Positions 7,337 to 54,991 of a stretch of DNA of 64,000 bases are shown here, in pieces. The notes beneath the pieces were generated by a model, which was not told where the DNA came from, made no database searches, and saw nothing but the letters and a program-made list of their open reading frames with translations. Position 1 is the stretch's first letter. Each line of letters starts with the position of its first letter. Source of the stretch: Candidatus Melainabacteria bacterium RIFCSPHIGHO2_02_FULL_34_12 (GTDB taxonomy: Bacteria; Cyanobacteriota; Vampirovibrionia; 2-02-FULL-35-15). A program made the position numbers and the translations under genes. The stretch lies in NCBI GenBank assembly GCA_001784555.1, contig MFRM01000005.1:28367-92366 (forward strand). The letters run 5' to 3'.

Positions 7337-9025
7337 ATGCCTCTAGGGGGTAGCAGGGGACTGCATTTTATGAATAAATTTAACTGCAAAACATGCTTTT
7401 TCTTTAGCTTTTTATTAGTTCTGCTTGCTTATGCAATAGGATTAACTTTACTTACAGGCCCGGCAAGAGCATTTGTTGAAACTAAAACTATATATCAAAA
7501 CTCTGCCTTTATAGAAGAAAGCAGTAATGATGTCCTTGATATAAACAGCCACCAAAATGAAAAATATAAATATTACTGGTTTCCTTCTCTAAATAATTCC
7601 CGGATTAAACTTCCGCCATTTGTAAAATCTATTAGTTTTGACGGTGTTATTAAAAAAGCATCTTTAATCGATTTAAATGATTTAAAGGAGGCTGGATGGT
7701 TATCGCGAAAAGATAAAAATTATTTAACTTCACTTAACAGAGGAAAAACTATGGAAGTTAAAATTGTTCTTGCTAACGATAAAAACTACGTATCATGGTT
7801 ACCTGTAAAACTTTATTTCAGTCCTTTGGTAGGAAACAGTCCAGAACAGCAATTAAGAATAAAACTTTCATATGCAGATGGCAGCATAGGCAACATTGTT
7901 TATATTAAAAACAGAAATCCTGACAGCAGTAATTTTTTGAATTTAAAAATAAAATCCCCTCCGACAAATCAGGACGGAGAGTTAATAATTGAGTTTAGAA
8001 CTAAGAGAAGATATCAGGCTACTCTTAGTGGAATATTATGGGAATATGAGGATGAAGCTATAGATTCTAATGTTCAGGATGACTCAGCAATTTTAGATCT
8101 GGAGAATATAGACGAAGAAATAAATGATTTTACTGAGCCACCGGTAACAATATTTACTGCACAGCCAGTTTCAATTAGTTCTTCTATGAGTACTAATATT
8201 GTTTCAGTATCTCCACAAACTATTGGCAATGGCAATAGTCAAATTGTTACAGGAATCACAGTAAATATTGGAATCAACACAAAGAAAAATGACAATAATA
8301 AATCCAATGATTCAAATATTATATTACCTACTCCAATTCCTATAACAACCACTTCTCCTTCTCCAGCCATTTCTCTTTCTCCAGCCATTTCTCCTTCTCC
8401 AACCACTTCTCCTTCTCCAGCCACTTCTCTTTCTCCAGCCATTTCTCCTTCTCTTGCTACAATTTCTACTCCAATTATTTCCCCAACTCCATCAGTAAAA
8501 GTTTCTCCTCACAGCAATGAGAATAAAGATAAATCTGAAGGTAAGCAAGCTGAAAACAATAAAGATGATAATAATAAATCAGAGAATCACGATGACAATA
8601 AAGATGACAATGATAGATCAGAGAATCACGATGACAATAAAGATGATAATGATAAATTAGAGAATCACAATGAAGATAAAGATGATAGAGACAAATCAGA
8701 AAATAAGCAGACTGAAGACAAAGAAGATAAAGATAAATCTAAAGATCAAACTGATAATCTAGTCTCAGAACCTGCACCTGTAGTTTCTGAACCAATCAAT
8801 GTACAACCACAAGAAAATGATTCATCTGTTGTTTCTGTTTCACCAATAGATGGTGGCGAATCTACCAATAACAATATTGAAAATCAAAATAACAATAATA
8901 TAAGCCCACAAGAGATTTCTCCTCCAGCCACCAAACAAGAACAAAATACAGATAAGCCAAAAGATTCAAATCCTTTTCCATTTCCAATGGATATATTTAA
9001 TCAACATCTTAAACCTAAATTTTAA
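7337..9025 (+). CDS. exported low-complexity protein (SPSPA and NHDDNKDDND repeats)
   Basis: Signal-peptide-like N-terminus (possibly starting at 7370), Ser/Pro tract then acidic Asn/Asp/Lys repeats. Confidence 0.6.
   Translation: MPLGGSRGLHFMNKFNCKTCFFFSFLLVLLAYAIGLTLLTGPARAFVETKTIYQNSAFIEESSNDVLDINSHQNEKYKYYWFPSLNNSRIKLPPFVKSISFDGVIKKASLIDLNDLKEAGWLSRKDKNYLTSLNRGKTMEVKIVLANDKNYVSWLPVKLYFSPLVGNSPEQQLRIKLSYADGSIGNIVYIKNRNPDSSNFLNLKIKSPPTNQDGELIIEFRTKRRYQATLSGILWEYEDEAIDSNVQDDSAILDLENIDEEINDFTEPPVTIFTAQPVSISSSMSTNIVSVSPQTIGNGNSQIVTGITVNIGINTKKNDNNKSNDSNIILPTPIPITTTSPSPAISLSPAISPSPTTSPSPATSLSPAISPSLATISTPIISPTPSVKVSPHSNENKDKSEGKQAENNKDDNNKSENHDDNKDDNDRSENHDDNKDDNDKLENHNEDKDDRDKSENKQTEDKEDKDKSKDQTDNLVSEPAPVVSEPINVQPQENDSSVVSVSPIDGGESTNNNIENQNNNNISPQEISPPATKQEQNTDKPKDSNPFPFPMDIFNQHLKPKF
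8356..8456 (+). repeat. degenerate minisatellite encoding (S-P-S-P-A-I/T)n
   Basis: Repeated tctccttctccagcca(t/c)t units. Confidence 0.7.
8577..8693 (+). repeat. 39-bp tandem repeat x3
   Basis: aaatcagagaatcacgatgacaataaagatgacaatgat repeated three times with few changes. Confidence 0.75.
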
Positions 9026-12200: not shown

Positions 12201-14258
12201 TGTACTGACGGTAGTTATCCAACAGGATCTGGAACATGTTCTTCGTCAACATACTATTGCTCACCAGGAATAGCATCTACAACGACTAATCCTTGTACCT
12301 GTAATCCTTCAGGCGGAACTTATTTAAACTCCAATAATATTTGTACTTGCACATCTTTAACTCAAACATATACTAAAGAAAATGGTTGCAGTAATTCTTT
12401 AGCCACATCAAATTATTGCTCACCAGGTATTGTTCCAACGGCAACAAATCCATGTACTTGTGCACCTGGTGGAGTATTTAACTTACAAAATGGATTATGC
12501 CAATGTACAAACGGGCAAGCATATACACAAGCAGGATGTTCTAATATTTCCTGTCCTCCAGCTACACCAATTAGATGTTCTGATAACACTTGTGCAGTTA
12601 CGCTTGCAACATGCCCTGTCTCTTCCTGTCCTCCAGCAACCCCGTATAAATGTTCTGACGGAAGTTGTGCTATTACACAAGCTGGTTGTGGTTCAACGAC
12701 AACTCATACTTGTGCACTAGGTGAAGTATCAAATTCATCTAATCCTTGTACTTGTGCAACTGGTGCAACGGTTGGTTCTAACGGACAATGTCAATGTACA
12801 AATGGACAAGTCTATGCTTCAGGAGGTTGTCCAGGATCAACAACTCGTACCTGTACAGTTGGTGAAGCTAACACATCATCAAATCCTTGCACATGTGCAG
12901 GTACTGCAACATTTGGTACTGGCAATACTTGTCAATGTCCAAATAACAATACTCCTCCATACACAGCAACAGGTTGTGGTTCAACAACAACTCATACATG
13001 TACACTAGGTGAAGTATCAAGTTCATCAAATCCTTGTACTTGTGCAAGCGGCGCAACAGTTGGTTCTAACGGTCAATGTCAATGTACAAATGGACAAGTC
13101 TATGCTTCAGGAGGTTGTCCGGTATCAACAACGCGTACCTGTGGAGCTGGTGAAGGACCAAATATTAGCTCCGCTAGTCCATGCACCTGTCAGTCCCTGG
13201 GCGGGACAACTACCAATGTAAATGGTTATTGCAAATGTCCAAGCTCTGCTATTTCTTATACTGCAATAGGTTGTCGGGTATGTCCCCTAAATGAAGTTTA
13301 CAGCTCCTCAAACCCTTGCCAGTGTGCAGGCACTGCAACATATAATTCTCAAAATGTTTGCTCATGTCCATCTGGAGGAACTTACTCTGAATCTGGCTGT
13401 ACTCCACCCCCAACAATTACGCTTACGAGTGTAACCATTAGTGGTAGCAATGTAACGATATCCCACAGTGTTGATCCTTACGCATGTTTGCTGGTAAAAG
13501 ATACAAACAATACTACAATCAAGCCAGGCAATTTATGCGGGACTGGATCTTTCAATTCTGTTTTCCCTACATCTGATTTCACTCCTTCTCTTGTAAGTGG
13601 TACACAGGTCAAGTTATGCAACCAAGATAATTCAAACAATTGCAGCTCAACTGTAGCAGTAACACAAGCAGAGTCTATTACATTGAACAGCGTAAGCATA
13701 AATGGAGGCACTGTAACTATTGATTTTAATGCAAACTCGCTTGGTGGAAGTAATTGTGCAGTGTTAAAAGATACCAATAATAATAATATGCACCCATCGT
13801 TATGCCTGGCTTTTAATAATGGACCAATTTCTTATAGCAAAGATACTTATTTTACCTCTAGTTTTCAGTCCGGGATTCAAGTAAGGCTATGTAATACCAC
13901 AACTGGATATTGTAGTAATTCTGCTACCGTTACTTCAACAACAACACCTATTACTGGAACCATTAATCTAAATAGTGTTACTAAAGTAATAAATACTAGC
14001 TATAGTGGAGGAGCTGCTTTAAGCATTAATTTTACAAAGTCAGCTTTTTCTCCTGCATCTTCTGATCAATGCGTTAGGCTTACAACAGCAGATGGTACTT
14101 CTTTACATGTAGCTGGAGCTTCTGTAGGTAAGATGTGTTTGTCAAGTACAAATGTAGCTATAACACAATTTACATCACAAGCTGCGGTAGGATTGCAGGT
14201 TAAGTTATGTACGCTTGATGGTACTCTCTGTAGTAGCCTTGTAACTATAGGACAATAA
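9291..14258 (+). CDS. 1655-aa exported cysteine-rich repeat protein, surface/adhesin-like
   Basis: Signal peptide (IIFSIFLALILVFSMPCSTFA); dense CxC/CxCx(n)G EGF-like modules from about aa 350 to 1370; three Ig-like/beta-sandwich-like C-terminal repeats (ITLTSVTISG..., ITLNSVSING..., INLNSVTKV...). Confidence 0.75.
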   Translation: MNKSANIIFSIFLALILVFSMPCSTFALKKKNPSEGITLSAINNEGNKNIFGSVLDPNINQVLLLLPKPLLYIIRKYGTARLNINVVSSLDSTKTYTVPANALSIQRKRIKGLSGRFLVVNFASVSSPSGVTISPSSLPSGDYKLRLIGDELDATTDTFNYQTPILIVGVVKSSNNGFITVEDLNGNLISEKTVAISPNGSFLTEVRANNLNNIKDINKKRNNFKLKSISFNGKSTDNSTQENNETVTTGIVHAVTDKDLYAITALDNDAESNSLKVNKPLILSESTSLTANIGLAYKPLAKEVAENQLTELESGTETSESSDDLGCDIFQFDDRCDLNNEDILYSIGADFKDYIKNSQCNFPEFNLIREIISESPEDANLYIGKGYCENAITRQNEDITKPCQVYAEVLSKFKSGAIKQLPCPPLVCEEFSNIKPPRCINPKEFCSDNEDKSLSEETEQICRGSKCKPVIPSCIARPRKDLYCARIGLDISEEECFSQNSQNFSSFKWTTGSDSNGQEYCIPSVSSQENITKECEVISCHRACEETYKSDPNNTKLNYTPSNPEPETCPVCDCHIGCDINSGRRVECNAQSKYFSNKCCNENKELPNDIKLLQGNNKGPVPIDIKSCLCEDPDNFDDRGIVIDGATSVCANICPEEYEKDPNKSICLPVCETGLVRDPNGFCKKKCPPGFIEDESGNCNCPAGQFPGPSGKCESFECPDYCKNIPMVREYLNQVTRPQGGSGSLNFGDSTGSNIPRPATSGFGDTTGGMFISPECQRCFGSKPIGTCGVGQYADPNGICRCNLDGSIATSLGPEGCKKQNSRYCEAGEKPSEKNCTCASPGYLSDTGICQCPPGYSIAYSALGCSSILRYCNPGETPQPLVCQCVPGSTNNGSSCQCSNGQPYTATGCGTSTFTCPPPYIKDPVFSNQCNCPPSTPYELGTTCVSTCPSNLVPTAIAGTAYSSTRQVCKCTDGSYPTGSGTCSSSTYYCSPGIASTTTNPCTCNPSGGTYLNSNNICTCTSLTQTYTKENGCSNSLATSNYCSPGIVPTATNPCTCAPGGVFNLQNGLCQCTNGQAYTQAGCSNISCPPATPIRCSDNTCAVTLATCPVSSCPPATPYKCSDGSCAITQAGCGSTTTHTCALGEVSNSSNPCTCATGATVGSNGQCQCTNGQVYASGGCPGSTTRTCTVGEANTSSNPCTCAGTATFGTGNTCQCPNNNTPPYTATGCGSTTTHTCTLGEVSSSSNPCTCASGATVGSNGQCQCTNGQVYASGGCPVSTTRTCGAGEGPNISSASPCTCQSLGGTTTNVNGYCKCPSSAISYTAIGCRVCPLNEVYSSSNPCQCAGTATYNSQNVCSCPSGGTYSESGCTPPPTITLTSVTISGSNVTISHSVDPYACLLVKDTNNTTIKPGNLCGTGSFNSVFPTSDFTPSLVSGTQVKLCNQDNSNNCSSTVAVTQAESITLNSVSINGGTVTIDFNANSLGGSNCAVLKDTNNNNMHPSLCLAFNNGPISYSKDTYFTSSFQSGIQVRLCNTTTGYCSNSATVTSTTTPITGTINLNSVTKVINTSYSGGAALSINFTKSAFSPASSDQCVRLTTADGTSLHVAGASVGKMCLSSTNVAITQFTSQAAVGLQVKLCTLDGTLCSSLVTIGQ
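12684..12850 (+). repeat. copy 1 of a 288-bp-period internal duplication
   Basis: ggttgtggttcaac...ggaggttgtccaggatcaacaactcgtacctgt is nearly identical to 12972-13138. Confidence 0.8.
12972..13138 (+). repeat. copy 2 of a 288-bp-period internal duplication
   Basis: See 12684-12850. Confidence 0.8.
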
Positions 14259-32173: not shown

Positions 32174-33619
32174 ATGTCAGAAAAAGAAATAAGAGTCCGC
32201 ATAGCCCCAAGCCCAACTGGCAGTCTTCATTTAGGCACTGTAAGAACATCTTTTTATAATTGTCTATTTGCAAAAAAACATGGCGGGAAATTCATTCTTA
32301 GAATTGAAGATACTGATGTTCAAAGAAACAAAGACGAATATACAAAAGAAATCTTAGATGGTTTTAACTGGCTTGGGATTAAATTTGATGAAGGACCTTA
32401 TTATCAAAGTGCCAGACTAGATTTATACAGAAAGTTTGCTCAAAAGCTTTTAGATGAGGGAAAAGCATATTATTGTTTTGTCACACCAGAAGAACTAGAT
32501 GAGCTTAGAAAAATCCAACGTGCTGCAAAAGTCCCTGAAAAATACGACAACAGACACAGAAATCTTACTAAAGATCAAAAAGATAAATTTATCTCTGAAG
32601 GAAGAAAAGCAGTAACCAGATTTAAACTGCCCGACAATACAGACATAAAATGGAATGATGAAATAAGAGGACTTGTTTCAGTAAACACTAATGACCTGGG
32701 CGGAGATCCAGTCATTATGCGTGCTGATGGTATTCCGCTTTATAACTTTGCAGTGGTAGTAGATGACGGTGATATGAAAATGACCCATGTTATACGTGGT
32801 GATGATCACCTTCATAACACAGCTAAGCAAATCCCTATTTTTGAAGCTCTTGGATTTCCTGTACCAATTTTTGCGCATGCTCCGCTTATTTTTACCCATG
32901 ACAGAGAAAAGTTAAGTAAAAGAAAACACGGCGACATTGCAAATATAGATAAATACCAAAAAGAAGGATATCTTCCTGAAGCTATGGCAAATTATTTAGT
33001 CCATATGAGCTGGACACAGCCAGATAAACCTGAAGAAGAAATATTTAAAATCGATGCTGTAGCTTTAAAATTTGAACTTTCTAGAATCAGCAAAAGCTCT
33101 GCTGTTTATGATCTACCGAAATTAAACTGGTTTAACAATCACTACATAAAAGAAAAATCTCTAAGTGAAATATACGAGCTCTCAAAAAGATTTCTTGAAA
33201 AAGATTTAAATTTATCTATCTATCCAAAAGATCAAATCTTAAAAATGATAGATGCTGTCCGTACTGGTTTAAATAAGCTGGACGAGCTGCCAGGGCTTAT
33301 AAAGTTCTTTTTCAATGACGAATTTGATTTTAGTAGAGACGAGGTTGCCTCGTCTCTACGTACAGAAAATGGGCGAAGGGTTTTAGAGAAAATATTGATC
33401 CAAATTAATTTATTTAATTTTCAAAACCCAGGTGATTGTAAAAATAAAGTAGATGGCATTGGGAAAGAGTTAGCTCTTAAAGGAAAAGATTTATATTGGC
33501 CGCTTCGTGTAGCACTGTCCGGCTCAAACAAAGGCCCTGACCTGGGTTTAATTATTTCACTTCTGGGTGCTGAGAAAGTAAAAAGCAGAATTGAGAAGGC
33601 ATTGAAGGTTTTGGTTTAG
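32174..33619 (+). CDS. gltX: glutamate--tRNA ligase
   Basis: RIAPSPTGSLHLGTVRT (HIGH region), KLSKRKHGD (KMSKS region). Confidence 0.96.
   Translation: MSEKEIRVRIAPSPTGSLHLGTVRTSFYNCLFAKKHGGKFILRIEDTDVQRNKDEYTKEILDGFNWLGIKFDEGPYYQSARLDLYRKFAQKLLDEGKAYYCFVTPEELDELRKIQRAAKVPEKYDNRHRNLTKDQKDKFISEGRKAVTRFKLPDNTDIKWNDEIRGLVSVNTNDLGGDPVIMRADGIPLYNFAVVVDDGDMKMTHVIRGDDHLHNTAKQIPIFEALGFPVPIFAHAPLIFTHDREKLSKRKHGDIANIDKYQKEGYLPEAMANYLVHMSWTQPDKPEEEIFKIDAVALKFELSRISKSSAVYDLPKLNWFNNHYIKEKSLSEIYELSKRFLEKDLNLSIYPKDQILKMIDAVRTGLNKLDELPGLIKFFFNDEFDFSRDEVASSLRTENGRRVLEKILIQINLFNFQNPGDCKNKVDGIGKELALKGKDLYWPLRVALSGSNKGPDLGLIISLLGAEKVKSRIEKALKVLV
33333..33359. repeat. GTAGAGAC palindrome in frame inside gltX
   Basis: GTAGAGACGAGG-ttg-CCTCGTCTCTAC, 12-bp perfect arms. 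Confidence 0.85.
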
Positions 33620-36733: not shown

Positions 36734-36765
36734 TGTAGAGACATGCTGCAGCATGTCTCTACAGG
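36734..36765. repeat. 32-bp perfect palindrome (GTAGAGAC family)
   Basis: CTGTAGAGACATGCTGCAGCATGTCTCTACAG. Confidence 0.9.
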
Positions 36766-36917: not shown

Positions 36918-37991
36918 ATGAGTGCTCAAGATAAAGTTCATGACGTAATAATTATCGGCGGTGGCCCTGCAGGTCTTATGTGTGCTTTTTATTGCGGGAC
37001 TAGCGGCATAAAACCAATGATACTTGAAGCGCTGGATTTTCTTGGCGGTCAGTCTGCTGCTCTTTATCCTGAAAAACCTGTCTATGATGTTCCTGGAATA
37101 ATTGAATGTACAGGACAAGAACTTGCTGACACATTAACTGAACAGGTAATGCAAATAGAACCACATGTTGAGTTTAATCAGAGCGTTGAAGAAATGAAAC
37201 ACATTGATGGTGTATGGAATTTAATCTGCAAATCAGGAAAAGTTTTTAAAACTAAAGCTATGGTGGTTGCTACTGGTAAGGGTGCATTTTCTCCAATCAG
37301 ACTTGGAGTTCCCGGCGAAGATGAATATGCAGGGAAAGGACTTACTTATAGCGTAAAACACATTTCAGATTATAAAGGAAAAGATATTTTAATAGTAGGC
37401 GGCGGTGACAGTGCAATGGACTGGACATGCACACTTAAAGATGTAGCAAAAAGCGTTACATTAATCCACCGCAGAGACGGATTTAAAGCTCATATTGGTG
37501 CAGTAAATCAGGTAAAAGCCATGGCAGAAGCTAAAGAAATAAATATGTTTATTCCTTATGAAATAAAAAAAATTGAAGGTGCAGGTAAAGTTGAAAAAGT
37601 TACTGTTTTTAATAATCAGACAAATGAAGAAAAAGCTTTTCCTGTTCAAAGTATTATTATTTGTGCAGGTTTCAGACCTACTACTGATGCACTTAAAAAA
37701 TGGGGTCTTGAATTAAATGAAAAAGGAATGATAGTAACTAATGAGATTTGCAAAACAAATCAGTCAGGTATTTTTGCAGTAGGTGATGCTACAGAATATA
37801 TCGGTAAAAGACATTTAATAGTTATGGAATTTGGAGAAGCAGCCAGTGCTGCTGGTGCAGTATCTACCTACATCTACGGCAAAGGCAAAGGTGGCGCAGA
37901 ATGGTGGGCAGGACCAAAGAAAAAGAAAACCGGCAACGTTGAAACAAACAGAGATGACGATTCCCAGAAACAACCTGTCGGTGCTAAGTAG
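36918..37991 (+). CDS. thioredoxin-reductase-like ferredoxin/flavodoxin--NADP+ reductase
   Basis: IIIGGGPAGLMCAFYCG, FLGGQ, DILIVGGGDSAMDW, FAVGDATEY motifs. Confidence 0.8.
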   Translation: MSAQDKVHDVIIIGGGPAGLMCAFYCGTSGIKPMILEALDFLGGQSAALYPEKPVYDVPGIIECTGQELADTLTEQVMQIEPHVEFNQSVEEMKHIDGVWNLICKSGKVFKTKAMVVATGKGAFSPIRLGVPGEDEYAGKGLTYSVKHISDYKGKDILIVGGGDSAMDWTCTLKDVAKSVTLIHRRDGFKAHIGAVNQVKAMAEAKEINMFIPYEIKKIEGAGKVEKVTVFNNQTNEEKAFPVQSIIICAGFRPTTDALKKWGLELNEKGMIVTNEICKTNQSGIFAVGDATEYIGKRHLIVMEFGEAASAAGAVSTYIYGKGKGGAEWWAGPKKKKTGNVETNRDDDSQKQPVGAK

Positions 37992-38014
37992 AGACGCGGT
38001 AACCGCGTCTCTAC
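37988..38014. repeat. 27-bp palindrome containing the TAG stop codon of the upstream reductase
   Basis: GTAGAGACGCGGT-a-ACCGCGTCTCTAC. Confidence 0.88.
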
Positions 38015-38738: not shown

Positions 38739-38770
38739 CTGTAGGGGTTTGCCATGGCAAACCCCTACAG
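38739..38770. repeat. 32-bp perfect palindrome containing the GH116 gene stop codon
   Basis: CTGTAGGGGTTTGCCATGGCAAACCCCTACAG. Confidence 0.9.
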
Positions 38771-41062
38771 AAAGGTAAATGCCCAGATCGATCCTGGTCT
38801 TTGATACATAGAGGCTCTAAAATTACCGTTTACATCCCATGCTTCAGGTGTCCTAAACCAGTAAGCCTTCTTTTCATAGACTACTGAATAAATTCCATGA
38901 GCAGTTTCCATGGCTTCCTTTTTAAGTCCTCTTAATTCCATATGAGATGCCAAGGCAAGAGTTACTCCTGTCCAGATCTCATTTGACTGGGTGTTTAGTT
39001 TCCAAACCTTACTTTCAGGCAGAAGCGTTCCGTCAGGATTTATGCCATTAATTGCTCCAATATCTCCATTTCCAACTTTTTTAACATTGAAATCAAATAT
39101 TTTCTTTAAGACCTTTTGAACCCTGTCTTTCTGGAAGATATCTCCTAAATTTAAGAGGTCAGCATACCATTGACCACAAAGCTGATCAGCCATGATATTT
39201 TCCCTATGTGGGCTTTTTGTATCATATAAATAGTAATCATTATGCCAAAGCTTTGCCTCAAGGTTCATTTTCCCGACATCCAGCCATCCCTGAAATAATT
39301 TAGCGTCTTTATTAATAATCTTTCCTATTTCAATGGCTGCTGCTAGCGAAGCTAACCAGAGACCGTTACAGTATGTGCTGGGTCCGTACATTGTCCAGTT
39401 ATCGTAAGTTTGATCGGGAATATTATTATTTTCAATCAGACAGTCATTGTCCCTGTCAAATTGCTTTAAATATATTAAAGAATTACATACAGGCTCCCAT
39501 GCTGCTTTTAAAAAATCAGTGTCTTTTCTGCCTGTCAGGTAATAATCACGGTATACAAGAAGCACAAACTTTGAATTTAAATCTTTCCAAAGATTAATGT
39601 TTACATGATTATATGAATTTATCTTAATAAAAGGAGCCTCATAAGGAGCTCCCAGATCATGCGGTACTGCTCCTTTTAGTTTTCTTTCTGCCGTGCTCTG
39701 GTCAAGCGGGTGATTAAAAAATACTTTTTCTTTAATTTCAAGATCAATGGTCTTAAAATAATCCCTCATTACAATTTTTTCAAGGTCAGGCCATAGTTTT
39801 AAAAGTACAAATGAGCCATAAAATCTAACATCCAGGGTTTCATAAAAGGGGTAATCAAAGCATTCTATGTTTCCAAAATGTTCTTCCTGCTTTACTACTA
39901 TTGTTGTTGTTTCTTCGCCGGCTCGCCCCACCGCCGATCCGCCGGTTCGTTCTTCATATCGTCCGGCAGTCCATATAGTTCCTCCATCTGCTAAGAAATA
40001 AAGTTCATTTATAAGCAATGTCTTAAACCAGTCTGGTTTATCAGATTTTAAATAAATATTCTGCCATTTTATAATTTCAAAAATCCATTTCTCATGAAAT
40101 TTAAATGCATTTCTTGCTATTTTTATTACACCCCTTCCATCTCTTCCGAAAAACTTTGTATATCGTTTATACCATTTGGTTTCATAGTGCGTATCAATAA
40201 AAGGAAAGTCCCATGCAACTACAAATGTAATAGTTTTATTCTCATGAGGTTTTAATTTTACTTTTGCACAAATTGCAGCCGGTGCATTTTTTGAATTTTT
40301 TAAATTATGAGTATTGCCAGTCTGATCAATCAATGTACCGGTTTTAGAAAAACTGTTCCAGACTTCGCTTCCATCACCATATGTATCAAAGGTATTCAGA
40401 TAACTAATTTCTACATCTTCTCTCTGGGCAAAGATTCCCATTTGTCCGTATTTATAACACTTTTCTCCAATTATATTATCAAAGACAATTCCTGAGAACA
40501 AATTCTCCTGATAAAAAATATTTTCATTAGATCCAAAAATACTTTCCCAGCTGCACAAAATAGATAATTCTCTTTCTGTATCTTTTGGGTTTTGAATATG
40601 CCATCTAAATACTGCAACTGGATATGAGGTTTCCTGATGGTTTTCAGGAATTACTGGAGAAAACTGTTCCTGAACAATATTTAAGTCTTTATATTCAAAA
40701 TATGCTCTAGGATACAGTGCATGATAAGTACCGTTTTGTTTTTGGAAATTCCAGCTTGAAAGCGTACCATCATCCGGTTTATGATCATGTAAAACAAATG
40801 CTTTTCCATTTTCATAAATTGCAAATTGACATGTGTTTATAGTTTTATAGATATGTTTTCCAATTTCAAGATGCCATTTTGAAAAATCCCCTCTGTAAGT
40901 TTGAGCAAAAGTACCTGCTCCAATTCCCCCTAAGGGTATACCCTGCCAATAGCCATCATCAAAATTAGGTAAGCCGCCTTCAGGACCAATTACTTTTACT
41001 ACGCCGGGTGAAGGATGAGGCTCGCCTATTTTTCTTTTAAAACTTATGTCCGGAATTATCAT
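38765..41062 (-). CDS. GH116 family glucosylceramidase/beta-glucosidase (GBA2-like)
   Basis: [92 protein letters not shown] motifs. Confidence 0.88.
39911..39951 (-). repeat. GC-rich repeat family copy B, in frame inside the GH116 gene
   Basis: Minus strand aacgaaccggcgg(atcggcgg)tggggcgagccggcgaagaaa; compare 29710-29744. Confidence 0.75.
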
Positions 41063-41392: not shown

Positions 41393-41416
41393 TTGGAAAA
41401 GTGAGTCTTAAAACAT

Positions 41417-41488
41417 TGGACCCTACTGGGATTGAACCAGCGCTCTCTTCCGTGTGAAGGAAATGTTTTACCATTAAACTAAGGGTCC
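41417..41488 (-). tRNA. tRNA-Val(CAC)
   Basis: Minus strand GGACCCT...AGGGTCC acceptor, anticodon arm TTTCC-TTCACAC-GGAAG, T-arm CTGG-TTCAATC-CCAG; CCA not encoded. Confidence 0.9.
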
Positions 41489-41503
41489 ATTCAGCCTATA
41501 CAT

Positions 41504-41509
41504 TATAAT
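41504..41509 (+). promoter_or_regulatory. -10 TATAAT 7 nt upstream of ATG (leaderless candidate)
   Basis: TATAATagcttccATG. Confidence 0.5.
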
Positions 41510-41516
41510 AGCTTCC

Positions 41517-42131
41517 ATGCCAGTTTTTACAAAACAAGAAATTGTAGAGGCTTGTCGCGACAAGCCTCTACTTATTGAAATTACAGATTTAGATCCGCTA
41601 ATAAAACTGGATATTCGATACGCTACAAAAAACAATTTTCTTAAGAGGCCTGTCTATAAAGAAGCAAGAGCATTCCTTCAAAAAGAAGCAGCAGAAGCAC
41701 TTGTAAAAATAAGCAAAGATTTAAATAAAGAAGGATATGGGCTTCTGGTTTTCGACGGTTACAGACCATGGTCAACAACTAAAATATTCTGGGATGAAAC
41801 CCCATCTGAAAAAAGAAACTTTGTAGCAGATCCAAAAGTTGGCTCTAATCATAATCGGGGTTGTGCAGTTGATTTGACTTTATATGAATTAAAATCAGGA
41901 AAAGAAATTAAGATGCCTTGTGAATATGATACTTTTTCAGAAGAAGCATTTCCTTCACATGCAGGCAGTACTAAAGAAGAAAAAGCAAATCGGGATTTCT
42001 TAATCAAGGTTATGGAAAAAGATGGAGACTTTAAGGTCCACCCAAACGAATGGTGGCACTACGATTACAAAGATTGTAATAAATATCCAGTCTTAAATCT
42101 TACATTTGATGAAATTACAAACGAACCTTAA
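41517..42131 (+). CDS. ddpX: D-alanyl-D-alanine dipeptidase (VanX/DdpX-like)
   Basis: IKLDIRYATKNNFLKRPVY, LVFDGYRPWSTTKIFW, SNHNRGCAVDLTLYEL, EWWHYDYKD motifs. Confidence 0.9.
   Translation: MPVFTKQEIVEACRDKPLLIEITDLDPLIKLDIRYATKNNFLKRPVYKEARAFLQKEAAEALVKISKDLNKEGYGLLVFDGYRPWSTTKIFWDETPSEKRNFVADPKVGSNHNRGCAVDLTLYELKSGKEIKMPCEYDTFSEEAFPSHAGSTKEEKANRDFLIKVMEKDGDFKVHPNEWWHYDYKDCNKYPVLNLTFDEITNEP
41544..41571. repeat. 28-bp perfect palindrome in frame in the dipeptidase N-terminus
   Basis: GTAGAGGCTTGTCGCGACAAGCCTCTAC. Confidence 0.9.
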
Positions 42132-43309: not shown

Positions 43310-43339
43310 TGTAGGGGCTTGCTGCAGCAAGCCCCTACA
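43310..43339. repeat. 30-bp perfect palindrome (GTAGGGGC family)
   Basis: TGTAGGGGCTTGCTGCAGCAAGCCCCTACA. Confidence 0.9.
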
Positions 43340-47457: not shown

Positions 47458-47957
47458 AAAAATATATTACTTTCTTCTTTTTATTTTCTCTAAGTCTTTA
47501 TGGTTTTGTTACAGCATTATCACAGTCCTTACCAGCTGGACTTCCTGAAGATATTTCTGGTTATAATAACTGGACAAAAATAAATAAAAAAACAATTAGA
47601 CCACGCTTTAACGATCCACATAGAGGTTATAAAAAAGTTTATGTAAATCAGGAGACAAGCATATTAAGAGATTCAAAAACAAAAAAACTGCTCTTTCCAT
47701 ATCCTGAAGGAACAATTATAGTTAAAGCAGTCCGCATAACTCCTAAAGCAAATAGCAACATTACTCTTATCTCAATTATGCGAAAAAAATCTGGGAATGA
47801 AACCACAGGAGGCTGGGATTTTATAGAATACACTATGTCATCATCTGATAACTCCTTTATCCCAATTAATTTCTCGAAAGAATCTTGCTATGCTTGTCAC
47901 CAAGGAGCATCTAATTCAGACAGCGTGTGGACAAAGTTTGATAATTTCAGAAAATGA
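47454..47957 (+). CDS. exported cytochrome P460-like protein
   Basis: Signal peptide; GHRGYKKVYVN-like region; CYACH heme-binding CxxCH near C-terminus. Confidence 0.65.
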   Translation: MKKYITFFFLFSLSLYGFVTALSQSLPAGLPEDISGYNNWTKINKKTIRPRFNDPHRGYKKVYVNQETSILRDSKTKKLLFPYPEGTIIVKAVRITPKANSNITLISIMRKKSGNETTGGWDFIEYTMSSSDNSFIPINFSKESCYACHQGASNSDSVWTKFDNFRK

Positions 47958-48796
47958 ATAAATTAATTTTAGAAGATTACAATCTAGAAATGACATTGCT
48001 TGGAGGGCAAGCATTTAACTGGGATTTTGAAGATGAGTGTTTTTACGGGTTTACACAAAGCAGGATAATTAAATTAATGCCCGTAGAGACTTGCCGTGGC
48101 AAGTCTTTATTACAATGGCAAACATATCCTGAGAATGACGATATTGATTTTTTAAAATCCTATTTAAGGTTAGATGTAAATTATAAAAACATTTTAAATA
48201 AAATACAAAAAGATCGTTATGTAAAAACTGCAGTTAAAAAATATCCAAATCTTCGATTAGTTAAACAAGATTTTGAAGAGACGCTTCTTTCTTTTATAAT
48301 TTCTACAAACAATAACATTAAATCAATAAGAAAATATATTAGACTCCTTAGTCAAAAGTTTGGCAAATCGATAAATGTAAATGGAGACAAATACTATTTA
48401 TTCCCTAGAACTGAAGTAATTGCAGAAGCTAAGCTTGAAGACCTTTTAAGCTGTAGTCTGGGCTTTAGAGCAAAATATTTAAAAGGCACTGCAAAATACC
48501 TGCTTGAAAACAAACTCACAAAAAAAATCCATAAACTATCAGAAGAAAATACAAGAATTGAACTAAAAAAAATTAAAGGGGTAGGAGATAAAATTACTGA
48601 TTGTGTTATGGTATTTTCGCTTGGCTTTGATAATATAACTCCGCTTGATGTCTGGGGAAAAAGAGTTCTGACTGACTTTTATAAAGTAAATAAAAAAATG
48701 AAATATAAAGACATGCGCAGATGGATTGAAAATTATTTTGAAGGATATGCAGGTTGGGCTGGACAATTTTTATTTGAATATATACGGCATCAATAA
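47954..48796 (+). CDS. ogg: 8-oxoguanine DNA glycosylase / AP lyase
   Basis: GGQAFNWDF, LLSFIISTNNNIKSIRKYIRLLSQKFG, IKGVGDKITDCVMVFSLGFDNITPLDVW (HhH-GPD). Confidence 0.85.
   Translation: MNKLILEDYNLEMTLLGGQAFNWDFEDECFYGFTQSRIIKLMPVETCRGKSLLQWQTYPENDDIDFLKSYLRLDVNYKNILNKIQKDRYVKTAVKKYPNLRLVKQDFEETLLSFIISTNNNIKSIRKYIRLLSQKFGKSINVNGDKYYLFPRTEVIAEAKLEDLLSCSLGFRAKYLKGTAKYLLENKLTKKIHKLSEENTRIELKKIKGVGDKITDCVMVFSLGFDNITPLDVWGKRVLTDFYKVNKKMKYKDMRRWIENYFEGYAGWAGQFLFEYIRHQ
48083..48110. repeat. decayed GTAGAGAC palindrome in frame inside ogg
   Basis: GTAGAGACTTGCC-gt-GGCAAGTCTTTAT, two mismatches in 13-bp arms. Confidence 0.8.
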
Positions 48797-52456: not shown

Positions 52457-54991
52457 TTATGGCGTAAGACCGCAAGTTACACGGAAACCTGCTTGATCAC
52501 TTGTAAATGAATCTGCATTTGTCAGATCTAGTGCAAGAGGTGCAGGTGAGTCAGTGTTTGAAGTCCATGAACCGCCACGAACAGGAACAATGGTTTGATT
52601 TGTTGAACTGGTTAAAATCTTACCGCTGTTTTTACCGCCATTTGTATCTGTAGTTGAGCCACTATCTACTGGTAAACCAAGTGCTTTTAAATCGGGATCC
52701 TGTGAAATATCATCGAAGTTAAAAGTACTGTTGTTAGTAGTAAAAGGAAGTGTCCTTCCAGCTCCAGTAAATCCGGAATCAATAGTCCAGACTCCTGCTC
52801 CTGCTGTTCCGGTACGTGTAACAGTGAAGTCAACTAGTTCTTTGACATTACCTATAAGATCATAGACCTGAAGGTCTCCGTCAAAGGTATCAGCTCCTGT
52901 TCCACCGCTATCATCTTTAATCGTGTCAGCAGTAGCACCAAGAGCTCCTTGTCCAGCACCACTTCCTGATTTTGTATTGCTTATAGATGAACCATCGAGT
53001 AAATGTCCCCAGCTCTTAAAGCCAGTTCCTGTAAGGCATCTATCAGTTGTTGCTCCACCTTCGATTGGATCATCACTGCACTCGAAGCTTGAGCTGTTTC
53101 TTCCATCTCTTGCTCCTCTTGTGTTTCCTCTTTCATTCCAACCGTTAGTTGTGTCAGCTCCAAATTTCCCAGAGACTTTTGAATATCTTCCAAGAATATA
53201 GAGTGCTTGTAGTTCTTTCATGGTTAATAAATGACAACTACCTATAGTAGTAATTTGTCTGTTTGCATGAGAAGCAGCTGTCTTTGCTGCAGCATAAGTT
53301 ATGCTTCCCCAAGGAACTACGTTCCTTTGGCTGGCTGCATTTGATGATGCTCCTGCATCAGAAGCTGTAGCATCAGATCTGGATGCTTCATATTTATCAA
53401 TCCAGAAACCTCCATATATAATTCCATCACTTAAGACATCCCGAAACTGTGGAATTTTTACCATTCTTGCCATTGCACTACCGACAGTAGTGAAGCTTTG
53501 TTCACTGGACAATGTATCCCAGTTTGCAATTAATTCTTCAACAGTAGGAAGTCCCTGACAATCAAGGGCATTATATGAACCATCTCCATTAACATCTTCA
53601 GATGAATCATTAGTTCCATTGCCGTTTGAATCCCAACAATTTGTACCGTTAGTTCCATTTGTACCATTAGTTCCATTTGTACCGTTGGTTCCATTTGTAC
53701 CGTTGGTTCCATTTGTACCATTGGTTCCATTTGTACCATTGGTTCCATTTGTACCATTGGTTCCGTCTGTACCCGTATCACCCTGTGGAACACCATAAGT
53801 AAGGGTACATGCATTTGAATCAAGAGTAACTGTTGCCATTGAACCTGCAGCAAGAGTGTTTGTAATAGTGGTTGGTGTTTGTGTTCTATCATTACAAAGC
53901 CCCATGCCATCAGCTCCAGTTCCAGCATTGACACCATTAAATCCTATAGGGATTCCAAAGGTAAGATTACAAAGTAAAGGATCAAAAAATACAGATGCTT
54001 GTGTACCTGCAGTAAGATTATTCGTAAAAATCATAAGCATGTCTGTAATATTGTTACAAACACCAGTGCCATCCATTCCATCTTCACCACTTTCACCAGC
54101 TGGTCCCTGAGGTCCAGCTATAGCATCTGGGGTAAGTGGATCAGTTCCAAGCCCGCTTGAAACACTTACAAAAACACCGTTTACAAGAGTAGCTGTAGAA
54201 TCAGTAAATGGATCTGTTGCAGTTACATTGCGAAAACCAGCTAATGCACTAGTAGTAGCAGTAGCTTTTACTTTCAATAAAGTATCATCGTCAATATTTT
54301 CTATACTGTTTATCTGAATAGTGCTGTCTCCAAATGATATATCAGTAAGAGAGTCAAATCCATTACCTAGAACAGTAAGAACTGTTTCAACACCGCGTGA
54401 AATAATTGAAGGAATAATTGCATCTATTCTAAATTCAGGTTTTGTATAAATTGTGGTTGTGGTTGTTTGAGAACCATCTACTGTAGCAGTTACACTATAG
54501 ATTCCAGGTAAAAAACCTTTTACAAAGACATTTACTACCTTATAGTCTGTTCCTTCAATGATTAAAAATTGGTTTTGTTTCTTGTTTAAATTAAAAATTA
54601 CTGGTTTGTTCTTTTTTGACTTTAGAATTCCATCTAATATTTGAGGATTGGTTTCAGCAGTTCGAAGATTTTTTATACTTAAAATCTTAAGCCCATCCAT
54701 TGCAAGCGTATTTTCATCTATTCCAAGCCCACCTGACTCAGCTCCTGTAATTTCAACTGCTACTGACACTGCGTTTGCATTAATAATTACCTGTATAGGT
54801 GTCTTTCTGTTAAGTTCAATGTTATATCTATCCCGTCTAAACTGCGGCAATAAAATACTTGCCAGATTTTCCTGTGCAAGAAATGTTTTAACCTTAGCAG
54901 GCCCGTAGTAAAGTGCCTGTGCACCTGTTTGCGATAGCAGTATTGTGGACAGCATTACAATGCAAAATATTTTCTTAAGTAGTATCTTCAT
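52457..54991 (-). CDS. exported IPT/TIG - collagen-like (GTN)n - SUMF1-like protein
   Basis: Signal peptide; IDAIIPSIISRGVETVLTVLGNGFDSLTDISFG; (GTN)n tract; C-terminal IYGGFWIDKYEAS...ELQALY...VRGGSWTSNTDSPAPL...GFRVTC. Confidence 0.7.
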   Translation of the reverse strand: MKILLKKIFCIVMLSTILLSQTGAQALYYGPAKVKTFLAQENLASILLPQFRRDRYNIELNRKTPIQVIINANAVSVAVEITGAESGGLGIDENTLAMDGLKILSIKNLRTAETNPQILDGILKSKKNKPVIFNLNKKQNQFLIIEGTDYKVVNVFVKGFLPGIYSVTATVDGSQTTTTTIYTKPEFRIDAIIPSIISRGVETVLTVLGNGFDSLTDISFGDSTIQINSIENIDDDTLLKVKATATTSALAGFRNVTATDPFTDSTATLVNGVFVSVSSGLGTDPLTPDAIAGPQGPAGESGEDGMDGTGVCNNITDMLMIFTNNLTAGTQASVFFDPLLCNLTFGIPIGFNGVNAGTGADGMGLCNDRTQTPTTITNTLAAGSMATVTLDSNACTLTYGVPQGDTGTDGTNGTNGTNGTNGTNGTNGTNGTNGTNGTNGTNGTNGTNGTNCWDSNGNGTNDSSEDVNGDGSYNALDCQGLPTVEELIANWDTLSSEQSFTTVGSAMARMVKIPQFRDVLSDGIIYGGFWIDKYEASRSDATASDAGASSNAASQRNVVPWGSITYAAAKTAASHANRQITTIGSCHLLTMKELQALYILGRYSKVSGKFGADTTNGWNERGNTRGARDGRNSSSFECSDDPIEGGATTDRCLTGTGFKSWGHLLDGSSISNTKSGSGAGQGALGATADTIKDDSGGTGADTFDGDLQVYDLIGNVKELVDFTVTRTGTAGAGVWTIDSGFTGAGRTLPFTTNNSTFNFDDISQDPDLKALGLPVDSGSTTDTNGGKNSGKILTSSTNQTIVPVRGGSWTSNTDSPAPLALDLTNADSFTSDQAGFRVTCGLTP
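53638..53768 (-). repeat. 9/18-bp minisatellite encoding collagen-like (Gly-Thr-Asn)n
   Basis: gttccatttgtaccattg-type unit repeated. Confidence 0.85.

Follow-up and report, generated by a model that had tools for sequence, protein, structure and literature searches.

A translated palindrome in a ddpX-like gene of an uncultured Melainabacteria genome and its dispersed, RAYT-linked family

The ddpX-like gene and its palindrome

The stretch of DNA analysed here, 64,000 nucleotides of contig MFRM01000005.1 of Candidatus Melainabacteria bacterium RIFCSPHIGHO2_02_FULL_34_12 (hereafter the window), carries a gene for a ddpX/vanX-like D-Ala-D-Ala dipeptidase. Inside its N-terminal codons lies GTAGAGGCTTGTCGCGACAAGCCTCTAC, a perfect 28-bp palindrome with 14-bp arms, at exactly the coordinates (41544-41571) of an original prediction that had described it as a mobile palindrome inserted in frame. 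We describe this palindrome, the dispersed family to which it belongs, and the transposase genes of the RAYT type (repetitive extragenic palindrome (REP)-associated tyrosine transposases) with which that family is associated.

The ddpX open reading frame (ORF) matches Pfam Peptidase_M15 (PF01427) at 3.9e-31 and PDB 1r44 at 4.4e-22, and core residues, among them H112, D119, E178 and H181, are invariant in 15 aligned homologues. The palindrome occupies codons 10-19 in phase 0 and reads VEACRDKPL(L) from ATG41517. The frame contains an upstream stop (TAA, 41475-41477), and no further ATG, GTG or TTG occurs between ATG41517 and TTG41874 (codon 120), which lies past most of the catalytic domain, so that a start there would delete the conserved LDIRYATKNN core. 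Because ATG41517 is the sole common start ahead of this core, the palindrome is, on the reading frame, crossed by ddpX translation unless a rare ATT, ATA or CTG start is used; the in-frame placement in the dipeptidase N-terminus is thereby upheld. The tryptic peptides expected from the translation at the palindrome are QEIVEACR and DKPLLIEITDLDPLIK. The start of the mRNA is predicted to fold into an RNA hairpin (z -4.98, 41517-41620), and no Rfam family matched at the palindrome. Since a TATAAT stands 7 nt from the ATG, in a layout like that of two relatives in which the gene adjoins the same tRNA, leaderless transcription of ddpX is suggested. In several relatives the protein is extended at its N-terminus by a hydrophobic stretch, apparently a signal peptide, which the window protein lacks.

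The comparison covered the ddpX homologues of six family genomes (62-69% identity) and about 50 more from outside the family. The VEACRDKPLL peptide was absent from all of them, and no significant hairpin was found at the aligned sites of the family relatives. The homologues align with the window protein from residue 19, L(V/I)EI, so the earlier proposal that canonical sequence resumes at IEITDLDP was nearly right. The tail could be aligned in four family members, two of them shorter by 4 residues and the other two of equal length. The net change is thus 0 to +4 residues and not a clean 10-codon insert: the sequence is lineage-specific, as had been proposed, but its boundaries do not fit the palindrome, and the gain of 9-10 residues expected from its full length did not appear. 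In the AlphaFold model, pLDDT is low over residues 1-20 (block means 56 and 64) and above 90 in most of the core. The palindrome appears to have landed in a variable N-terminal tail, and the enzyme core is intact.

A dispersed palindrome family in coding sequences

The host genome (2.11 Mb) is a family-level relative of Caenarcanales/"Melainabacteria" metagenome-assembled genomes (MAGs). A strict pattern, GTAGRGRC...GYCYCTAC, found 78 copies of 27-29 bp in it, a lower bound for the family, and the reversed pattern used as a control found 0. GTAG is paired with CTAC in every 27- and 28-bp strict copy tabulated, as the pattern itself demands, and unpaired relatives of the palindrome would escape it. 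The 78 copies have 62 distinct left arms, in which variable stem positions covary as complementary pairs.

All 78 copies were classified from the sequence stretches around them, a copy being counted as inside an ORF when it lay wholly within one of at least 120 aa. On this basis 42 are inside ORFs, 6 supply the stop codon of an ORF and 30 lie elsewhere. The coding share (54%) falls short of the 81% expected for random window positions, as would be expected if many insertions were purged. Reading phases are 0 in 20 of the in-ORF copies and 1 in 22, with none in the third phase, which reads TAG. The phase shared with ogg, cited in the original prediction as evidence of in-frame insertion, is therefore not diagnostic; the ogg copy does exist in phase 0 but is degenerate. 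A functional peptide encoded by the palindrome was also considered and judged unlikely, since both phases are used equally.

Most scanned host ORFs have Pfam domains at 1e-5 or better, and a few are without a match. The Pfam-backed hosts include gltX, pmbA, mqnC, a D12-class methyltransferase, dapA, ftsY, prmC, mqnA, the CCA-adding enzyme, homoserine dehydrogenase, nadD, recN, queG, uvrC, enolase (eno), thiE, trpA, trpC and a flavoprotein with two copies. In genes beyond ddpX, the net gain ranged from 0 to about +11 residues. Alignments against palindrome-free family relatives gave 0 for gltX, +4 for the nitrilase and for the majority of the uvrC comparisons, +5 for dapA, +6 to +7 for recN, +7 for enolase and mostly +8 for the methyltransferase. 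Against solved structures, the trpA alignment ran ungapped across the palindrome, trpC gained about 1 residue and enolase again 7. Because these gains are smaller than the element, host codons seem to be partly replaced; the element would usually replace part of the host sequence, or arrive and be followed by loss. Targeting to GTAG was rejected: the empty site of relatives in enolase has GTAG, but those in uvrC, recN and the methyltransferase lack it.

Other genera often have a different perfect or near-perfect palindrome at the equivalent protein site, as in the CCA enzyme, homoserine dehydrogenase, nadD, queG, pmbA, the methyltransferase and dapA. Within one genus, the genomes G009 and G006 have several palindrome sites in common, with the copies decayed in G006; no clear target-site duplication was found when G009 was compared with G006 and G010. 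At the prmC palindrome site, G001 and G009 (L188, L189) carry another repeat type, which in one of them encodes VIPAKAGIQ...RVKPGMT. In the CCA enzyme of G006 (L232), the palindrome is expanded to an in-frame tandem array of half-units of about 18 bp (GAGACGTTGCATACGGTG). The mqnC-like gene of the present genome (G000; L060, 1214-1290) has the palindrome followed by in-frame half-palindrome repeats (LLQQVST), and this ORF also contains a run of N.

Further copies in the window are listed in Table 1. The window also contains direct repeats at 53621-53791, 8328-8507 and 12675-13373, which are spaced 9, 18, about 141-147 bp or more apart.

Table 1. Features of the ddpX locus and palindrome copies in the window
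Feature	Position	Strand	Remarks
tRNA-Val (cac)	41416-41489	-	directly upstream of ddpX; Rfam RF00005
TATAAT	41504-41509	+	7 nt ahead of ATG41517; consensus match only; possible leaderless start
ddpX/vanX-like D-Ala-D-Ala dipeptidase, 204 aa	41517-42131	+	PF01427; PDB 1r44; motifs SxHxRGxAVD and EWWH intact
Perfect 28-bp palindrome GTAGAGGCTTGTCGCGACAAGCCTCTAC	41544-41571		phase 0, translation VEACRDKPL(L); hairpin z -4.98
27-bp palindrome in gltX (32174-33619)	33333-33359		in frame, phase 1; zero net length change against six relatives
Intergenic copy	36735-36762
Copy at ORF end	37988-38014		its GTAG supplies the TAG stop of ORF 36918-37991
GTAGGGGT variant	38741-38768		outside the strict pattern; gives the stop of GH116 ORF 38765-41062 (-)
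Copy 5' of cysteine synthase ORF	43311-43338		probably intergenic
Degenerate copy in ogg (47954-48796)	48083-48110		in frame, phase 0; 3 of 14 pairs broken

RAYT genes as the candidate mobiliser

A search with PF01797 and protein comparison located RAYT-like ORFs at C3:79292, C3:250209-250724 and C12:3898 of this genome, together with fragments. Two of them match PF01797; the third (L070/L331) has no Pfam match at 1e-5, yet shows homology and carries the HUH motif. The motifs of these ORFs are HUH, WQPRFYE...IRN and YIxNNP. Their assignment as RAYTs is based on Pfam and these motifs, because the sole PDB match, to E. coli TnpA-REP (4er8), is weak (E 0.28). A further RAYT ORF of this genome (C3:133997-134447; L335, L339) is interrupted close to the loop in which intact RAYTs contain a palindrome.

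Across 11 genomes of the family, those with an intact RAYT had 78, 66, 61, 19, 13, 10 and 5 strict copies, and those in which RAYT was absent or a fragment had 5, 4, 1 and 0 (Mann-Whitney, p 0.006, a test that ignores relatedness). In the family set of RAYT ORFs (L320-L337), all 13 intact main-clade members contain an in-frame GTAG-type palindrome a few codons downstream of the HUH motif, in the same loop; the stems differ, and in some palindromes a terminal base is altered. In a second small clade (L326, L336, L338) a different sequence occupies that loop. Among RAYT ORFs of other Cyanobacteriota (L343-L369), 16 of 24 have a hairpin in the post-HUH loop (p <=0.01), most but not all of them GTAG-ended; in many the ends are GTAG...CTAC. 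Keyword look-ups in the open-access literature (PMC2817692, PMC3733652, PMC6006769) found no description of a palindrome inside RAYT genes, and a literature search on the GTAGGGGC string and on Melainabacteria palindromes returned nothing relevant.

Origin of the palindromes and comparison with known systems

We consider it fairly probable (roughly 0.65) that the ddpX palindrome belongs to a RAYT-linked, translated and dispersed family of symmetric GTAG...CTAC palindromes that has moved to, or been written into, many of the genes in this lineage. The predicted mobile palindrome thus stands as a member of a dispersed family lying in frame in many genes; its movement, and RAYT as its probable mover, we infer from the association. 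RAYT, a relative of E. coli TnpA-REP among the HUH/Y1 enzymes, is predicted to recognise the hairpin as single-stranded DNA at the GTAG end. It would then copy or join the hairpin into new sites, usually with some host bases replaced, and the survivors would be events that kept the frame and fell in tolerant loops or tails. A more far-reaching version, which we offer only tentatively, is a RAYT system found throughout the lineage: its transposase gene would harbour a symmetric GTAG palindrome of its own in frame, and palindromes would be written into host genes mainly in exchange for coding sequence, with length hardly changed, and be renewed with new stems at the same protein loops.

Several observations weigh against mobilisation by RAYT. 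Neither a transposition event nor a clean empty site was seen among the compared genomes, and this MAG was compared with other genera of its family. Net changes smaller than the element fit insertion plus deletion, replacement or later loss alike. Some RAYT-bearing genomes are poor in copies (5 in G010), no GTAG palindrome flanks a family RAYT ORF within 250 bp, and the GTAG of described GTAG-tagged REPs (PMC3733652) is unpaired at one end, whereas here it is paired with CTAC in a symmetric element.

The hairpin at the start of the ddpX mRNA, the covarying stems and the perfection of coding copies, which are at least as palindromic as non-coding ones (28/42 versus 19/36 perfect, p 0.10), would suit a hairpin that is itself useful as RNA or DNA, through mRNA stability, translation pausing or protein binding, its coding position being incidental. 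This is unlikely, given that copies with highly variable stems are spread across unrelated genes, both strands and both open phases, that the ddpX copy is private to this lineage, and that some relatives are nearly palindrome-free. About the same small weight is given to a selfish coding palindrome of the Rickettsia/Wolbachia type with a mobiliser other than RAYT. It would behave in the same way, with in-frame copies in unrelated essential genes, and the RAYT link would be coincidental or the RAYT loop merely tolerant of insertions, as recurrent sites in other genes also allow. However, a hit in one loop of all 13 RAYT ORFs, together with the copy-number association, is improbable by chance, and the GTAG end and RAYT link agree with described REP biology.

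Two simpler accounts concern the ddpX copy itself. Di Nocera et al. 2013 (PMC3733652) caution that annotation errors account for many N-terminal REPs, and such an error would make this palindrome extragenic and place the ddpX start downstream; the lack of common start codons before TTG41874, and the loss of the conserved core that a later start entails, leave this highly improbable. Even less credit is due to ancestral codons or a chance palindrome with no element behind it. Variable DdpX tails and a small net length change would permit it, but about 0.0008 perfect 28-bp palindromes are expected in the window against several related ones present, no homologue encodes the peptide, and the genome-wide family already refutes it.

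A RAYT-linked family of this kind would extend translated palindromes beyond Rickettsia and Wolbachia to an uncultured Cyanobacteria-related lineage whose genome also encodes a candidate enzyme. The palindromes supply dozens of naturally occurring in-frame alterations of conserved enzymes. They also raise the testable idea that the RAYT gene is itself the home of the palindrome, which bears on the long-open question of how REPs spread.

Among known systems, the GTAG-tagged REPs, including intragenic ones (PMC3733652), are similar in being dispersed GTAG palindromes of 27-29 bp with variable yet complementary stems, in lying inside unrelated genes including uvr genes, in supplying TAG stops and in co-occurring with RAYT genes. 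The present elements have the small dispersed form (20-40 bp) and the RAYT co-occurrence of that superfamily without its unpaired GTAG; described GTAG REPs are mostly intergenic, in contrast to the coding share found here. The RAYT/TnpA-REP proteins (Nunvar et al. 2010, PMC2817692; HUH survey, PMC6006769; 4er8) share the HUH, WQPRFYE...IRN and YIxNNP motifs, including the catalytic Tyr of Y1 transposases, and a palindrome number that tracks the gene. Described RAYT ORFs are flanked by two inverted REPs, whereas those found here hold one in-frame palindrome within the ORF. With the Rickettsia and Wolbachia palindromic elements (Ogata and Claverie; PMC4224334), the family shares in-frame translation in unrelated, often essential proteins. 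Those elements belong to other lineages. RPE-1 is described as a longer insertion than REPs (PMC3733652), and WPE-like regions extend over hundreds of bases (PMC4224334). RPE-4/6 are grouped with CGTC repeats and have no dedicated transposase (PMC3733652). With 27-29 bp, GTAG ends, often little net length gain and a non-rickettsial genome, the ddpX palindrome falls outside RPE-1 and the RPE-4/6 CGTC group, and the original comparison with Rickettsia elements gives way to a genomic link with GTAG palindromes and RAYT transposases. Because GTAG is paired here and the RAYTs are without flanking REPs, we regard the element, which behaves like both an intragenic REP and a Rickettsia palindromic element but differs from each, as a variant rather than a member.
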